Shown piece after piece: positions 10,564 to 25,299 of a stretch of DNA of 31,558 nucleotides. The notes below the pieces were generated by a model that was not told the origin of the DNA, searched no databases, and saw only the letters and a program-made list of their open reading frames with translations. This DNA is from a virus, in the IMG/VR virus record IMGVR_UViG_3300037485_000324, positions 1-31,558 of that record; one strand, given 5' to 3'. Both the position numbers and the translations under genes were made by a program. Positions within the stretch are counted from its first letter, which is position 1; the number at the start of each line of letters is the position of its first letter.

Positions 10564-11718
10564 TTATCTTACTGCATACTTGCCGTAGTTTGGTCTGGCT
10601 AATTTATCATAAAGGCCATAACGGACCGCATCTATTGTATGGTTGAACATATCCACCGGAACGTTTAATATATTTCCGTTTTTGTCTTCTTGCCATTTGT
10701 AGTTTCTGAATTCTTTTATCATATTGACACTATCTTTTGTAACATAAAGGTTATATCGTTTCATCATATCAATTCCTATGTTTACGCTTCCTTGTCCTTT
10801 TGTAGCTGGTTTAATATTCCAACCCATTCTATAAAGTTCCTCGATTGATTTTGGCTCTGCACTATCAGCATAGATTTCTTTTCGCTCTATTTCGTGCAGC
10901 CTTAACTTTGTATCAATATCTCGATTTGTTAATTTAGTTTCAAAGATTAACTCTTTCAAAAATATGTTATCACCTTGCTGGTAAATAGCCACCAATGTGG
11001 TCGGGTCATTAGTATATCCAAAGTCCATTCCATAACTTAAAAACTTGGCATCTGTTGGAATACTTAAGCACTCGTTAATTCTGAATATAAGGGCTTGTGA
11101 TGAACCAACTAAACCCAAGCCATAGATATTCCAATAGTTTTCGTCAACGGTCTTTAAACGCTCTATTTCGTTTACTGTCTGCTCATCTAAAAATGGATTG
11201 TCTTTATAGGTAGTTATATAAAACTCTGCATCATCTCTTGGCTTTATCTTATCGTAAATGAAGTGGAATTCGTCTGAAGGATTGTAGTCAAGTATTGCCT
11301 TGTCTGTTGTTCTTAATATTAACTGCTGCCAGTCTTCAAAGTATAATTCGTTTGCCTCGTTAATATACAATACATCACGTTTACGACCTCTTACCTTCTG
11401 TGGTTGGTCCAAACTTATAAACTCAAATAGGTTGTTGTTAAGCAAGTATTCTGAATTACTTTTATTGTGATTGCTTTCTTTATAGATGTCGTAGTGTTTT
11501 AATATATCGAAAAAATCCCGCATCGAACTTGCTCGCAATGCTGGGAATGTTTTTCGGCAGATGGTTATCGTCTTGCCATTGTTTCTATCTGAATAACTAA
11601 AGATAAGCCACATTAAAATATTATAGGTCTTGCCACTTCTGGACCCACCTTGCTCAATCGTAATTCTTTTATCTGACCTATCTAAATGGGTGTATATTTT
11701 ATTGGTTTGTATTTCCAT
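10564..11718 (-). CDS. terL: Terminase large subunit
   Basis: The 384-aa protein has both terminase parts. ATPase: Walker A GGSRSGKT at residues 24-31 and Walker B DVLYINEANE at 115-124, with Glu121 as catalytic candidate. RNase H-like nuclease: GMDFGYTNDPT at 230-240 (Asp232), ADSAEPKS at 284-291 (Asp285) and NHTIDAVRYG at 359-368 (Asp363). It most resembles the PBSX/Terminase_3 group and is slightly short for it. It cuts concatemers and drives DNA into proheads. It overlaps the small-terminase gene by 20 nt and is followed by tail genes rather than by the portal, which is unusual. Confidence 0.92.
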   Translation of the reverse strand: MEIQTNKIYTHLDRSDKRITIEQGGSRSGKTYNILMWLIFSYSDRNNGKTITICRKTFPALRASSMRDFFDILKHYDIYKESNHNKSNSEYLLNNNLFEFISLDQPQKVRGRKRDVLYINEANELYFEDWQQLILRTTDKAILDYNPSDEFHFIYDKIKPRDDAEFYITTYKDNPFLDEQTVNEIERLKTVDENYWNIYGLGLVGSSQALIFRINECLSIPTDAKFLSYGMDFGYTNDPTTLVAIYQQGDNIFLKELIFETKLTNRDIDTKLRLHEIERKEIYADSAEPKSIEELYRMGWNIKPATKGQGSVNIGIDMMKRYNLYVTKDSVNMIKEFRNYKWQEDKNGNILNVPVDMFNHTIDAVRYGLYDKLARPNYGKYAVR

Positions 11719-12076
11719 CCGGGTTGTTGTCGATTACTCGTACTGTAAACTCTTTTAGTTCGTGTTTGTTTTCTGACTCTACAAATTGCATCGATAGTTT
11801 TTTTCTTTGCTCATCTGAACATATTATTTTGAATGCACTAATTTGTAAAGTTGGATTATCACTCGCTATAAATTTATTTAAAAGATAAGACGCACCTTTC
11901 GACTTGTTGGTATGTATAGCGTCTTTTATGCTCTCCGATTTCTGTAGTTCTAATTTATAAAACTGTGAAGATTTTAAACCGGTATAGTGTGCAAAGATAT
12001 GGTCTGCACACATAATTTTATTATTTACTATTACATCTGTAATTTCTCTTTCGTGTTCCTCTTTACTCTTTCCCAT
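11699..12076 (-). CDS. terS: Putative terminase small subunit
   Basis: The 125-aa protein is helical, with a basic N-terminus, a segment CADHIFAHYTGLKSSQFYKL (residues 23-42) that could form a helix-turn-helix, then SYLLNKFIASDNPTLQISAF and a KIICSDEQRKKL segment. The order of an N-terminal DNA-binding part, a helical oligomerisation part and a polar tail fits small terminases, which recognise packaging sites. Its position directly before terL with a 20-nt overlap is the main evidence. It shares one base with the adenine methyltransferase stop codon (TAATG). Confidence 0.65.
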   Translation of the reverse strand: MGKSKEEHEREITDVIVNNKIMCADHIFAHYTGLKSSQFYKLELQKSESIKDAIHTNKSKGASYLLNKFIASDNPTLQISAFKIICSDEQRKKLSMQFVESENKHELKEFTVRVIDNNPDGNTNQ

Positions 12077-13008
12077 TATATTATATATTTTTCTTGTCCT
12101 ATTGGTACAAATAGTTTTTCGTCTGGTTGATTATTATGTTTTTGATTTCCGCCTTGCAAAGTACTCTTTTGACTAAATGAAAGTAATACTTCAAAATCTT
12201 CTGGTGCGTTGTATTCTGATATATAAATTTTATGGCTCTTTGATATTTCTCTTACCCAATTCCAAAACTCTTTATGATTGAATGCTCCCTCTTTATACTC
12301 TGCTGTTCCTTGATAAGGTGGGTCACAATATATTATTGCATTTTTTGGTATTTCTACTTCATTATAACTATTACTATAAATTTCCAGTCGTTCCAGTTGT
12401 TGCAGTTGTTCCAGTCGTTCCAGTTGTTCCAGTTGTTGCAGTCGTTCCAGTCGTTCCAGTTCTAAAATTCTATTCTTTAAAACTTTTGCAACTTTACCAA
12501 GTGCTATTCTTCTCTTATGCCAGTCTGTTTGTTTTATTATACCATCTATATATTTTTGAGGGATATTTGGTAGTAATTGTTTTAAAAGTTTTGGGTCTTT
12601 ATTTATTACTAATTCGTGACCAGCTCTTTTGTATGGCTCTGTTTCTTTTCCGAAAATATATGCTTTTTGATTATTACCAAATGACCAAATACACATTACA
12701 TAGCCTACATACCAATCTTCATAGTTATCGCTATTTTTCAACACATCTTCAAACTTTGCTCTTGTAATAAATTCTAAACATTTTTGCTCATTTAAACCTT
12801 TGTTTATTGTTTCGTCTAATAAAGCAGTCACATATTTATTTTTATCATTTGCAATAACATTAAATCCATTTTTATAAAATAATTCTCCAATAGCAAAACC
12901 ACCGCAGAATAAATCTACAATGGTTTTTTTATCTGGATTAAAATTTATAATAGTTTGATAAATTTTTTGTGCTGATTTTCTTTTTGAACCCATATATGGT
13001 ATAGCCAT
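12076..13008 (-). CDS. Dam-type DNA adenine methyltransferase (D12 class)
   Basis: The 310-aa protein has the D12 order: YMGSKR near residues 5-10 (motif X), VDLFCGGFAIGELF at 31-44 (motif I, SAM binding), a target-recognition region at about 60-180, and CDPPYQGT at 228-235 (motif IV, catalytic DPPY). Residues 183-209 are nine Leu-x-x tripeptides (LER, LEQ, LQQ) made by a 9-bp tandem repeat just before the catalytic motif, an unusual insertion for the family. It likely methylates adenine in phage DNA, for protection from restriction or for regulation of packaging. It couples to the ParB-like gene and to terS by 1-nt overlaps. Confidence 0.88.
   Translation of the reverse strand: MAIPYMGSKRKSAQKIYQTIINFNPDKKTIVDLFCGGFAIGELFYKNGFNVIANDKNKYVTALLDETINKGLNEQKCLEFITRAKFEDVLKNSDNYEDWYVGYVMCIWSFGNNQKAYIFGKETEPYKRAGHELVINKDPKLLKQLLPNIPQKYIDGIIKQTDWHKRRIALGKVAKVLKNRILELERLERLQQLEQLERLEQLQQLERLEIYSNSYNEVEIPKNAIIYCDPPYQGTAEYKEGAFNHKEFWNWVREISKSHKIYISEYNAPEDFEVLLSFSQKSTLQGGNQKHNNQPDEKLFVPIGQEKYII
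12382..12462. repeat. 9-bp tandem repeat inside the adenine methyltransferase gene
   Basis: Nine consecutive 9-bp units on the plus strand, mostly TTCCAGTCG or TTCCAGTTG with two TTGCAGTNG variants and a final TTCCAGTTC, fill 81 bases without a gap. Translated on the minus strand they give tripeptides of the form Leu-Glu/Gln-Arg/Gln. Gain or loss of units keeps the frame, so the array can vary in length without knocking out the gene. Confidence 0.95.
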
Positions 13009-23356: not shown

Positions 23357-23911
23357 TTACAAAGATACGTTTAATTGTTTAATTAAAATGTCAAACTTTA
23401 ATTTTTTAGCTATTAATTCATCTTTGGAATATTTGTAGTTTCTTTTCTCGTCGCTAATCAGATCCAACTTCTGGACAAATTCATTTCCGTATCTGTTTAT
23501 TAATCCTTTTCTATATTCAAGTAAATTTCCAGATAAAAACTTATTGCAATGGCTGTTGCATTGCTTGTGGCAGTTCCTCTCATCAAACATCAAACCCGAA
23601 TACATCCCAGCACTATAAAAGTGACCGCCGGCCCAATCTGTTGTATTTAAGTTTCCACAACTAATGCAAGGTAAATCCTTGTCACGCATTCTAACCCACT
23701 TTTGAAACGACTTCTTTGCATCTGCCTCATATTGTGAAAGTGTTTTTAATTTGTCCTTTAAAACGGCCTTTTCTGCTTTCCATTCTCTTGCCTCTTTTTG
23801 GTCTTTTAGGTTTTTAGAATGAATGATGGCACATTTATAATTGCAAACTGCTTGTGCAAATGATACTGGAACAAATGATACTTGACAAACTTTACATTTC
23901 TTTGCTTTCAT
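23357..23911 (-). CDS. ninG: NinG-like recombination protein
   Basis: The 184-aa protein fits the lambda NinG (Rap) family: an N-terminal zinc-type segment (CKVCQVSFVP from residue 6, CNYKC at about 23-27), a helical linker rich in Lys and Glu, CISCGNLNTTDWAGGHFYSA (about 82-101), then MFDERNCHKQCNSHCNKFLS (about 108-127). NinG cuts branched DNA in recombination. The gene ends the unit with the surface lipoprotein and 59-aa gene and is closed by a strong terminator. It is separated from erf by the early promoter, so it may be made at another time. The 59-aa gene overlaps its start by 20 nt. Confidence 0.85.
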   Translation of the reverse strand: MKAKKCKVCQVSFVPVSFAQAVCNYKCAIIHSKNLKDQKEAREWKAEKAVLKDKLKTLSQYEADAKKSFQKWVRMRDKDLPCISCGNLNTTDWAGGHFYSAGMYSGLMFDERNCHKQCNSHCNKFLSGNLLEYRKGLINRYGNEFVQKLDLISDEKRNYKYSKDELIAKKLKFDILIKQLNVSL

Positions 23912-24071: not shown

Positions 24072-24314
24072 CTAATTACAGTATTGACTTCCTAAACTTA
24101 CTATTTCATAAACTTGTTGCTGTGTTATAACATCAGTGCAGTTGTTTTTTACTTTAAAGACTGTATACGGTGTCACTCCATCTGGACCAGCAACATTAAA
24201 CGTTGATGCTTGTATCACTTCACCACAGTTGCAATCACTGTTTGATATTGTTTCATCTGTTGAGCAGCTAAAAGATATTAATGCAACTGCTAAAATTGTA
24301 ATTACTTTTTTCAT
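24072..24314 (-). CDS. Small surface lipoprotein (possible superinfection-exclusion protein)
   Basis: The 80-aa protein starts with a lipoprotein signal: MKKVITILAVALISFSC, with Cys17 as the lipidated residue, followed by STDETISNSD. The acidic residues right after Cys17 resemble the lipoprotein export signal that sends lipoproteins to the Bacteroidota cell surface. The mature part has four more cysteines (28, 30, 59, 79), likely two disulfides, and no enzyme motif. Phage surface lipoproteins often block receptors for later phages (T5 Llp, Cor-type proteins), so exclusion is a good hypothesis. It lies below a structured non-coding region and above the 59-aa gene and ninG, with an A-rich leader but no Shine-Dalgarno sequence. 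Confidence 0.68.
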   Translation of the reverse strand: MKKVITILAVALISFSCSTDETISNSDCNCGEVIQASTFNVAGPDGVTPYTVFKVKNNCTDVITQQQVYEIVSLGSQYCN

Positions 24315-24410: not shown

Positions 24411-24449
24411 TATTTACTTTCTTTTGTTAGATTTTGTTGCTTTAAAGAT
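24411..24449. repeat. 40-base imperfect direct repeat, copy A
   Basis: Copy A begins TATTTACTTTCTT and ends TTTAAAGAT. Copy B at 24501-24540 has the same beginning (13 identical bases) and the end TTTGAAAGAT. Nearly all differences are transitions plus one indel. The copies flank a hairpin (24451-24502). Confidence 0.75.
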
Positions 24450-24450
24450 A

Positions 24451-24502
24451 TAGTAAACCCAAGAGAAATAGCCAAAAAAAAAGCTAAATCCATTGGGTAC
24501 TA
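24451..24502 (-). ncRNA. Bulged hairpin between the two 40-base repeats
   Basis: TAGTA-AA-CCCAA (24451-24462) pairs with TTGGGTACTA (24493-24502) as a 10-bp stem with an AA bulge. Inside it, TAGC (24469-24472) pairs with GCTA (24483-24486) around a long homopolymer (A on the plus strand, T on the minus strand). It is part of a run of stem-loops that fills this non-coding region. Confidence 0.5.
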
Positions 24503-24540
24503 TTTACTTTCTTCCGTTGAGTTTCGTCACTTTGAAAGAT
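24501..24540. repeat. 40-base imperfect direct repeat, copy B
   Basis: Second copy of the repeat described at 24411-24449. Within this copy CTTTC (24507-24511) can pair with GAAAG (24534-24538); in copy A one of these pairs is lost. Confidence 0.75.
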
Positions 24541-24666
24541 GCTAAATTTTATTTAAGTTAAATTAGCTTTCGAACTTGCAGTACTTAAATACTGATGCCA
24601 CCATTTCGATTTAGTCTGGTGCTTACTTTCGCATAACCCGATGGTAACCCATCATTTTGTAGTAAG
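24541..24666 (-). ncRNA. Cluster of four further stem-loops
   Basis: Perfect short stems follow one another: GCTAA/TTAGC (24541-24545 with 24563-24567), CAGTA/TACTG (24579-24583 with 24590-24594), CACCA/TGGTG (24599-24603 with 24617-24621) and CTTACT/AGTAAG (24622-24627 with 24661-24666). The last encloses GATGG-TAAC-CCATC (24640-24653). The third and fourth stems touch and could stack coaxially. There is no ORF here. The density of stems suggests a folded RNA; the strand is taken from the promoter at 24809-24838, which would need readthrough of the terminator at 24697-24748. Confidence 0.5.
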
Positions 24667-24696
24667 TTGATAATTTCTCGCAAACGTGATTGTAGA

Positions 24697-24803
24697 CAAA
24701 AACAAGAAACCCTTAATCAAAGAGGCTAGACGGTCTTTGTTAAGGGTTATTTCGGTCATCAAAATGGCAACCTACTTAATCAATAGGTGTCTAGCCAAAT
24801 TGA
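24697..24803 (-). ncRNA. Structured RNA with terminator/antiterminator-like alternative folds
   Basis: Predicted minus-strand RNA from the 24809-24838 promoter. Parts in order: TTGATGA/TCATCAA stem (24800-24806 with 24756-24762) enclosing segment a GGCTAGAC (24796-24789) and a hairpin ACCTA/TAGGT whose 9-nt loop is segment b TTGATTAAG (24783-24775); then a terminator hairpin of 15 bp with one bulge (24748-24734 with 24723-24708), loop CCGTCTAGCC, followed by TTTCTTGTTTTTG. The terminator loop contains the complement of a. Its 5' arm contains CTTAACAA, the complement of b, and its 3' arm repeats b exactly. Pairs a/a* and b/b* are nested, so they form an alternative fold that breaks the terminator. 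Confidence 0.62.
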
Positions 24804-24808
24804 TGAGC

Positions 24809-24838
24809 CAAAGATAGAACTATTATTTTAATAAACAA
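24809..24838 (-). promoter_or_regulatory. Bacteroidota-type promoter for the structured RNA
   Basis: On the minus strand TTG (24838-24836), a 19-base spacer and TATCTTTG (24816-24809) match the consensus TTG-N17-23-TAnnTTTG without mismatch, the best such match I found in the window. Transcription should begin near 24803, at the first base pairs of the structured RNA. It lies directly after the endolysin stop. An AT-only hairpin (TATTTTA/TAAAATA, 24824-24830 with 24840-24846) overlaps it and may weakly end the lysis transcript. Confidence 0.65.
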
Positions 24839-24846
24839 CTAAAATA

Positions 24847-25299
24847 TTAAAATTTTTCATAATTAGTTTTGCCATTTACTTTTTTGGCTCTTAAAACTTG
24901 GTTTCTATTCTTGTCAGAATAAGATACGTGCAACCAATCTGGATTGTCTTTTGTACCGAATTCCCAGATAAGTTGGTCAAACTTCAAATTGTCTTTTATC
25001 CAATGAAATAAAATAGCATTTGTTACCTTACTGCCTTGCATATCTATATCAATAGCCTCGCCTCTGCAATGTTGGCTTGTTACGCTGCCTTTAATGGCTT
25101 GATTTAAGTTAATGATACGATAACCGCTTGTGATGTGAATTGGTACGTTAAAATGCTCCCTTGCTGGCTCGAAAACCTTTTCTGCTAATCTGATTAAATT
25201 TGCTAATTGGACTTGATTAGGCTGGTTTACTATTCCCAATTTGATGGCAGTTTCTGAATGTGTTAATTCCTCGAGTGTTAAATGCTTGCTTACTTTCAT
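24847..25299 (-). CDS. Endolysin, M15-family peptidase
   Basis: The 150-aa protein is a single M15-type (Peptidase_M15_3-like) domain: HITSGYR (residues 55-61), SQHCRGEAIDID at 75-86 with zinc ligands His77 and Asp84, and DWLHVSY at 121-127 with His124. Such enzymes cut peptide bonds of the peptidoglycan stem or cross-link. There is no signal peptide, so export depends on a holin. It is the last gene of the lysis cassette and overlaps the spanin gene by 4 nt (ATGA). The N-terminal KHLTLEELTHSETAIKLGI resembles the usual lead-in of these phage enzymes. Confidence 0.9.
   Translation of the reverse strand: MKVSKHLTLEELTHSETAIKLGIVNQPNQVQLANLIRLAEKVFEPAREHFNVPIHITSGYRIINLNQAIKGSVTSQHCRGEAIDIDMQGSKVTNAILFHWIKDNLKFDQLIWEFGTKDNPDWLHVSYSDKNRNQVLRAKKVNGKTNYEKF

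Follow-up and report, generated by a model that had tools for sequence, protein, structure and literature searches.

Several described plasmid and phage systems resemble the RNA that we report here. The rep leaders of plasmids pT181 (repC) and pIP501 are attenuators controlled by antisense RNA through kissing loops, and the loop sequence sets the specificity. In ColE1 control, RNA I and RNA II (with Rop) form intermolecular loop-loop helices of seven to eight bases, with variable loops in a constant frame, and RNA II primes replication. The HK022 put RNAs and the lambda P_R'-t_R' leader (6S RNA) are short structured RNAs just after a phage promoter.

We analysed a phage record of 31,558 bp (we use "the window" for this whole stretch of DNA). 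It has a candidate RNA of about 100 nt, RNA1, in which a segment near the 5' end is the exact complement of part of the loop of its own intrinsic terminator. Related phages have many RNAs of this plan, which we call kissing-terminator modules; the upstream pairing segment is the code and its complement in the terminator loop is the anti-code.

Like the pT181 and pIP501 rep leaders, the modules at replication genes are putative leader RNAs whose intrinsic terminator comes right before the initiator gene, but the modules have code and anti-code within one RNA and no antiterminator pairing. With ColE1 RNA I and RNA II they have in common a loop-loop helix and a variable loop sequence in a constant frame, whereas the kissing is intermolecular in ColE1 and intramolecular in the modules, where one partner is the terminator loop. 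By the features that we tested, the modules belong neither to the plasmid rep attenuators nor to the RNA I/II group. The put RNAs and the lambda leader are also structured RNAs before a terminator and an operon. They differ from the modules in that put has conserved sequence in two hairpins, without code and anti-code, and the lambda leader needs the protein Q; neither is similar in sequence to the modules. Riboswitches with terminator expression platforms likewise have a 5' leader, tertiary loop contacts and a terminator before a start codon, but the modules have no sequence-conserved ligand core across families and no Rfam match. Lambdoid phage morons are promoter-unit-terminator cassettes inserted between phage genes, as the modules are; the modules differ in that they encode no protein and have the pairing code as their constant feature.

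Rfam gave no gathering-level match in the window or in 22 related loci. The best match below threshold had an E of 0.84 and was on the opposite strand, and nothing there was credible. The open-licence literature that we searched has no description of such RNAs, and the paper describing the LMO6/LMO9 phages (discussed below) does not mention RNA; an earlier description elsewhere is possible. An earlier note on this DNA had stated that it knew no described family with this layout, and neither Rfam nor this literature supplied one.

RNA1 and its surroundings

Nearly all of the main genes in the window are on the minus strand, as are all of the features described here. The last gene of the late block encodes an endolysin-type peptidase M15 (24847..25299, Pfam PF08291) and is followed by about 530 nt without a good gene. 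RNA1 is at the start of that gap. Past the gap, in the minus-strand direction, there is a lipoprotein-like gene (24072..24314, no Pfam match), which is the first gene after RNA1 and a second non-coding element, RNA2. Then come NinG of the early block (23357..23911, Pfam PF05766), ERF, an SSB-like DUF3127 protein and a DnaB-like protein. RNA1 is the opening of the early block, exactly at the late-early boundary, and RNA2 and about 400 nt separate it from the next gene, unlike the tight modules that we found elsewhere. Also in the window (12076-13008) is an adenine methyltransferase of the D12 type, into which a region of LERLEQLQQ-type repeats is inserted.

The Bacteroidetes-type promoter (24809..24838) consists of TTG at 24838-24836, a 19-nt spacer and TATCTTTG at 24816-24809. 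TTG-N19-TATCTTTG has just two matches on the minus strand of the 31.5-kb window, of which this is one, and for TTG-N17..21-TAnnTTTG the module's own promoter is the sole match within several hundred bases. TAnnTTTG is found in all family members. In Flavobacterium psychrophilum the -7 box TAnnTTTG is at -12 to -5 (PMC9723704), and from this we predict that RNA1 starts at A24804, the first base of a near-invariant ATCAAT. The earlier note had the promoter at the same place and the start near 24803, and its coordinates proved right.

RNA1 (24697..24804) has its predicted 3' end in a U-rich tract. In the minimum free energy fold, helix P1 is formed by CATCAATTTGGC (24794..24805) and GCCATTTTGATG (24757..24768); in the short form of the RNA, P1 occurs as AATT..GG/CC..AATT variants. 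Segment a, GGCTAGAC, is at 24789..24796. Next to it is the hairpin P2 (24770..24788, ACCTA-loop-TAGGT) with ACCTATTGAT, which is near-invariant in alignment A1, and the P2 loop is the segment that the earlier note called b. In L290 this hairpin is replaced. P3, the intrinsic terminator hairpin (24708..24748), has its 5' arm at 24748-24734, its loop at 24733-24724 and its 3' arm at 24723-24708. It runs into the U-rich tract TTTCTTGTTTTTG (24697..24709), which is TTTTTT in most homologues. The terminator loop CCGTCTAGCC includes segment a*, GTCTAGCC (24724..24731), the exact complement of a. Because the GGC of a is also in helix P1, P1 and a/a* overlap by about 3 nt. The fold of RNA1 has -36.3 kcal/mol compared with -17.8 for shuffles (z -6.4), and a match of 8 nt between loop and upstream sequence is found by chance in about 0.7% of shuffles.

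Conservation of the a/a* pairing

We fetched homologue loci through the peptidase and NinG proteins, plus a DNA pattern, which gave 26 RNA sequences (21 unique in a and the loop). There are two forms, short (A2) and long (A3), and the window RNA is of the long form. ATCAAT a constant few bases past TTTG, the ACCTATTGAT hairpin and the terminator are kept by all but the most diverged homologues.

The a/a* pairing is kept in homologues from 24 other viral loci by way of 12 distinct combinations. With its own terminator loop, a has a longest Watson-Crick run of 7.6 nt on average, against 3.6 nt with non-self loops, and the observed pairing sum was equalled in 0 of 100,000 permutations. Across the 12 distinct pairs, 95.8% of cells are canonical, with compensatory change at each of positions 3-6. 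Judged by comparison of sequences, the promoter, the terminator and the a/a* pairing of RNA1 are real. This bears out two proposals of the earlier note: a phage-encoded RNA with its own promoter and terminator (TAnnTTTG is in all family members, the terminator in homologues), and an a segment exactly complementary to the terminator loop, where the compensation in homologues is strong support for the a/a* pseudoknot.

One RNA, at L052:4998-5088, is the only member of family 1 (the family of the window RNA) with a mismatched code, GGCTGAA against TTCAGTCC, and its sequence suggests a recombinant of the long form with the short form. In 85,000 bacterial genomes the exact pattern was found mainly in the coding sequence of atpA, and no copy was linked to a promoter. 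DNA similarity searches with the window RNA or the L044 and L053 versions gave only chance matches among named phages. The covariance model R1, which was built on the short form, recovered the long form weakly.

The proposed antiterminator

The earlier note read the locus as a switch between a terminator and an antiterminator in which b takes up a terminator arm as an alternative fold. In favor of this, b can pair with the terminator 5' arm in the window. The homologues, however, show no conservation of this pairing (own sum of 89 against a permuted mean of 86.5, p=0.12). Of the compensatory changes on which the switch would depend, those for a/a* are there and those for b/b* are not. We also compared the upstream RNA with both terminator arms in 43 modules of all families (described below). 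There was no excess pairing with the 5' arm (p=0.45 for Watson-Crick pairs, 0.73 with GU) or with the 3' arm (p=0.90).

The p of 0.12 and the null arm-pairing test led us to reject a two-state switch built on b/b*, which we now rate as very improbable, and the lack of excess with either arm in the 43 modules led us to reject any other arm-pairing antiterminator. Since a/a* and the terminator are mutually compatible, the conserved fold is a pseudoknotted terminator and not a pair of exclusive folds.

A wider class of modules

We had reached two diverged relatives, L290 (without the ACCTATTGAT motif) and L291, by way of the downstream element. They suggested that the architecture alone is essential, so we made a generic search. 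The detector requires TAnnTTTG followed by a segment, 7 nt or longer, that has its reverse complement in the loop of a nearby intrinsic terminator. We ran it on every fetched viral locus, and as controls we used complement-only or reverse-only matches. The first version found 45 unique matches (1 and 1 in the controls) and the refined version 60 unique modules (3 and 1), or 41 at 8 nt (2 and 0). In NinG phages there were 62 against 3 and 0 in the controls. The counts were not above background in other peptidase-set phages (1 against 0 and 1) or in bacterial loci (3 against 1 and 4).

The modules occur in phages of Bacteroidetes-type hosts, including the cultured phages mumin, hattifnatt, phi19:3, Harreka_1 and elemo. 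Most of those outside family 1 have no obvious sequence in common with the window RNA. Comparison shows that what they share is a plan: a TAnnTTTG promoter, a 5' hairpin or helix with a code of 6-9 nt, a short linker, and a terminator loop with the exact complement. In many modules the code is in the apical loop of the 5' hairpin and the anti-code is in the terminator apical loop, above an inner stem. The ACATTATA-motif family has compensation at 6 of 8 code positions, in a table that includes about five false matches. Loop-loop complementarity is kept through compensatory change, as is expected of a kissing-loop (pseudoknotted) RNA. In L056, L059, L092 and L301 the terminator stems of the modules have internal loops, AGUA/GAA, that are similar to the bulged-G (loop E) motif.

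There can be two to four modules in a phage, and the modules of one phage have different codes. Between similar modules, code positions differ in 24% of comparisons and the rest in 12.6%; this is only suggestive of diversifying selection on the code because the similar pairs are not independent. Code 8-mers were found elsewhere in the same locus 6 times against 5.2 expected. This is no excess, and as target seeds in the same genome the code 8-mers found no support.

That count matters for the main rival explanation, that the modules are stand-alone sRNAs. Such a "non-coding moron" would be stable, with ends locked by the kissing helix, and would act in trans; it might bind a protein that recognises the kissing shape, while long early transcripts that ignore the terminator serve the downstream genes. 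A complete promoter-RNA-terminator unit with a strong U tract would fit, and so would the very stable fold, the several modules per phage with differing codes, the varied downstream genes, and the near-invariance of the ACCTATTGAT hairpin and the 5' ATCAAT within family 1. However, the code 8-mers are not in excess elsewhere in the locus, the families have little sequence in common, and a free sRNA would not be expected to have the tight, repeated placement directly before replication genes that we describe next. We consider a stand-alone sRNA possible but doubtful.

Position and downstream genes

Outside family 1, the distance from the end of the upstream gene to the promoter is mostly 2-50 nt, and that from the terminator to the downstream ATG is mostly 8-30 nt. 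The modules are flanked by early genes that run in the same direction, and very often the start codon of a DUF6291 gene follows at 10-30 nt. This leaves no room for a second promoter, so that if the terminator works, the downstream gene needs read-through or terminator-resistant transcription. In most modules we see what an attenuator has, an intrinsic terminator in a gene leader with the ATG shortly downstream.

The downstream genes encode DUF6291 proteins (for which Olleya phage Harreka_1 and the elemo phages have the annotation replication protein), NUMOD4-HNH and GIY-YIG nucleases, DNA methyltransferases, RNase H and helicase. Modules directly before NUMOD4/HNH or GIY-YIG nuclease genes are at L042:1432, L054:270, L055:9754, L067:1511 and L296:4001, so that a module and its homing-type gene may be mobile as a unit. 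Virulent phages from the Baltic Sea that infect Flavobacterium LMO6/LMO9 have two modules; in mumin6-1 (MN812220), which infects Flavobacterium sp. LMO6, their promoters are at 11666 and 12701. A NUMOD4 endonuclease gene comes right after the first module, whose code is GTCGTCG. The second is before the helicase/primase region and has GTGGAACG in mumin6-1 and GTGAGACG in hattifnatt9-1; the differences between these versions are compensated.

In a first set of 19 unique DUF6291 genes, our script found a module within 600 nt of 11, compared with 4.2% of other ORFs. Reading the script misses added L131, L077, L058, L062 and L074 and brought the count to 16. In L076 and L111 the module comes one gene earlier, and L082 is without one. 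Three cultured phages, Cellulophaga phi19:3, Olleya Harreka_1 and Flavobacterium elemoC, were chosen solely for encoding DUF6291, and all three have a module directly upstream of the DUF6291 gene or its operon. A profile scan of viral contigs gave a second set of 76 loci with enough upstream DNA. A module is close upstream in 51 of these, with 29 codes (6 and 3 in the controls; at 7 nt, 40 against 2 and 1), in a set that is not fully independent because a few contigs and close relatives are common to both. The ATG is usually 9-28 nt downstream of the module. The other 25 loci gave no module, and neither did the prophage DUF6291 genes in five Flavobacteriaceae genomes.

As a class, then, the modules have the place of a leader before a replication initiator gene (DUF6291); for the window this holds only loosely, at the start of the early block. 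The earlier note had tied the RNA to the lipoprotein-ninG unit, and we dropped that specific link because the next gene differs among relatives. It is plausible that RNA1 is a leader before early genes, and the recurrence of modules before replication genes strengthens this.

The same adjacency could mean that the transcript acts in phage DNA replication itself, as a primer or by licensing near the initiator gene, like RNA II of ColE1, where control also makes use of kissing helices. We find this highly unlikely, as modules are also before nucleases and methyltransferases, there can be two to four in one phage, and the GC skew of the window has no turning point at RNA1. Another explanation is that the kissing helix merely strengthens or protects an ordinary terminator and RNA end and so separates blocks of transcription. 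The place of RNA1 exactly at the late-early boundary and the compatibility of a/a* with the terminator would suit this. But the modules always have their own promoter just upstream, they occur within arrays of early genes, in which a plain terminator would have polar effects, and an insulator would not need so strict a layout, which makes this explanation improbable.

Proposed mechanism

Our preferred reading, to which we give a probability of about 0.5, is that RNA1 is a member of a broad class of phage kissing-terminator leader modules and a cis-acting attenuator of early and replication genes. The module probably limits read-through into these genes, a regulation that we infer from sequence and position. 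Transcription would start at the module, and the 5' loop would meet the terminator loop as the latter emerges. Most transcripts would end at the terminator and give a compact RNA of 60-135 nt locked by the kissing helix, while a regulated fraction would read through into the downstream early and replication genes, with the module as a cis-acting leader. The code would capture the anti-code before the terminator 3' arm is made, so the kissing helix would be well placed to alter the speed at which the hairpin forms. Since one molecule has both code and anti-code, cis pairing should win over trans pairing, and this speaks against the code itself being used as an antisense. The start, end, termination efficiency and read-through of the modules are predicted. 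Against the attenuator reading, we see no classical antiterminator pairing that could give a regulated terminator its second state, RNA1 is further from its next gene than the tight modules are, 25 of the 76 DUF6291 loci and the five Flavobacteriaceae cases gave no module, and the downstream genes other than replication genes are mixed (homing-type nucleases, methyltransferases).

We suggest more tentatively that the hypervariable 5'-loop code itself, through pairing with its own terminator loop, may set the read-through into replication genes, with an orthogonal code for each phage, much like plasmid incompatibility groups. With diverse codes, a leader would not pair with the leaders elsewhere in its own phage or in a phage that co-infects.

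These comparisons are a sign that many related viruses of flavobacteria have control RNAs of an undescribed class, in which the pairing sequence keeps changing. They suggest a common, uncatalogued RNA device before early and replication genes in many tailed phages of flavobacteria and their relatives. We found the device by self-complementarity and not by sequence, which may explain why family searches miss the modules. The cultured phages offer concrete modules that can be tested, and several dozen natural code/anti-code pairs on terminators would be usable as a natural parts set. If read-through is controlled, the modules would bear directly on the timing of replication in poorly studied phages without a known antitermination system.

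RNA2 and other downstream elements

RNA2 (24440..24695) is a strongly conserved non-coding stretch downstream of RNA1 on the same transcript path, outside the module that the earlier note had claimed. It is about 245-330 nt long, is just past RNA1 in most close relatives, and has no Rfam match. RNA1 and RNA2 together have an identity to the window of about 84% in L002 and 80% in L045. There are three sequence types of RNA2. The window has type II, type I is in L044:4562-4830, L046, L039, L171 and others, and type III is in L042, L053, L120 and L177. In the type I alignment, both sides have changed in 15 of 51 predicted pairs.

Both L046 and L147 have a further promoter and the hairpin GAATTGTGCATAATTC about 400-500 nt past RNA1. 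The loop of this hairpin is matched by that of a terminator downstream of it (GTGCAT/ATGCAC), which makes a second kissing module, placed before a ParB-like gene.
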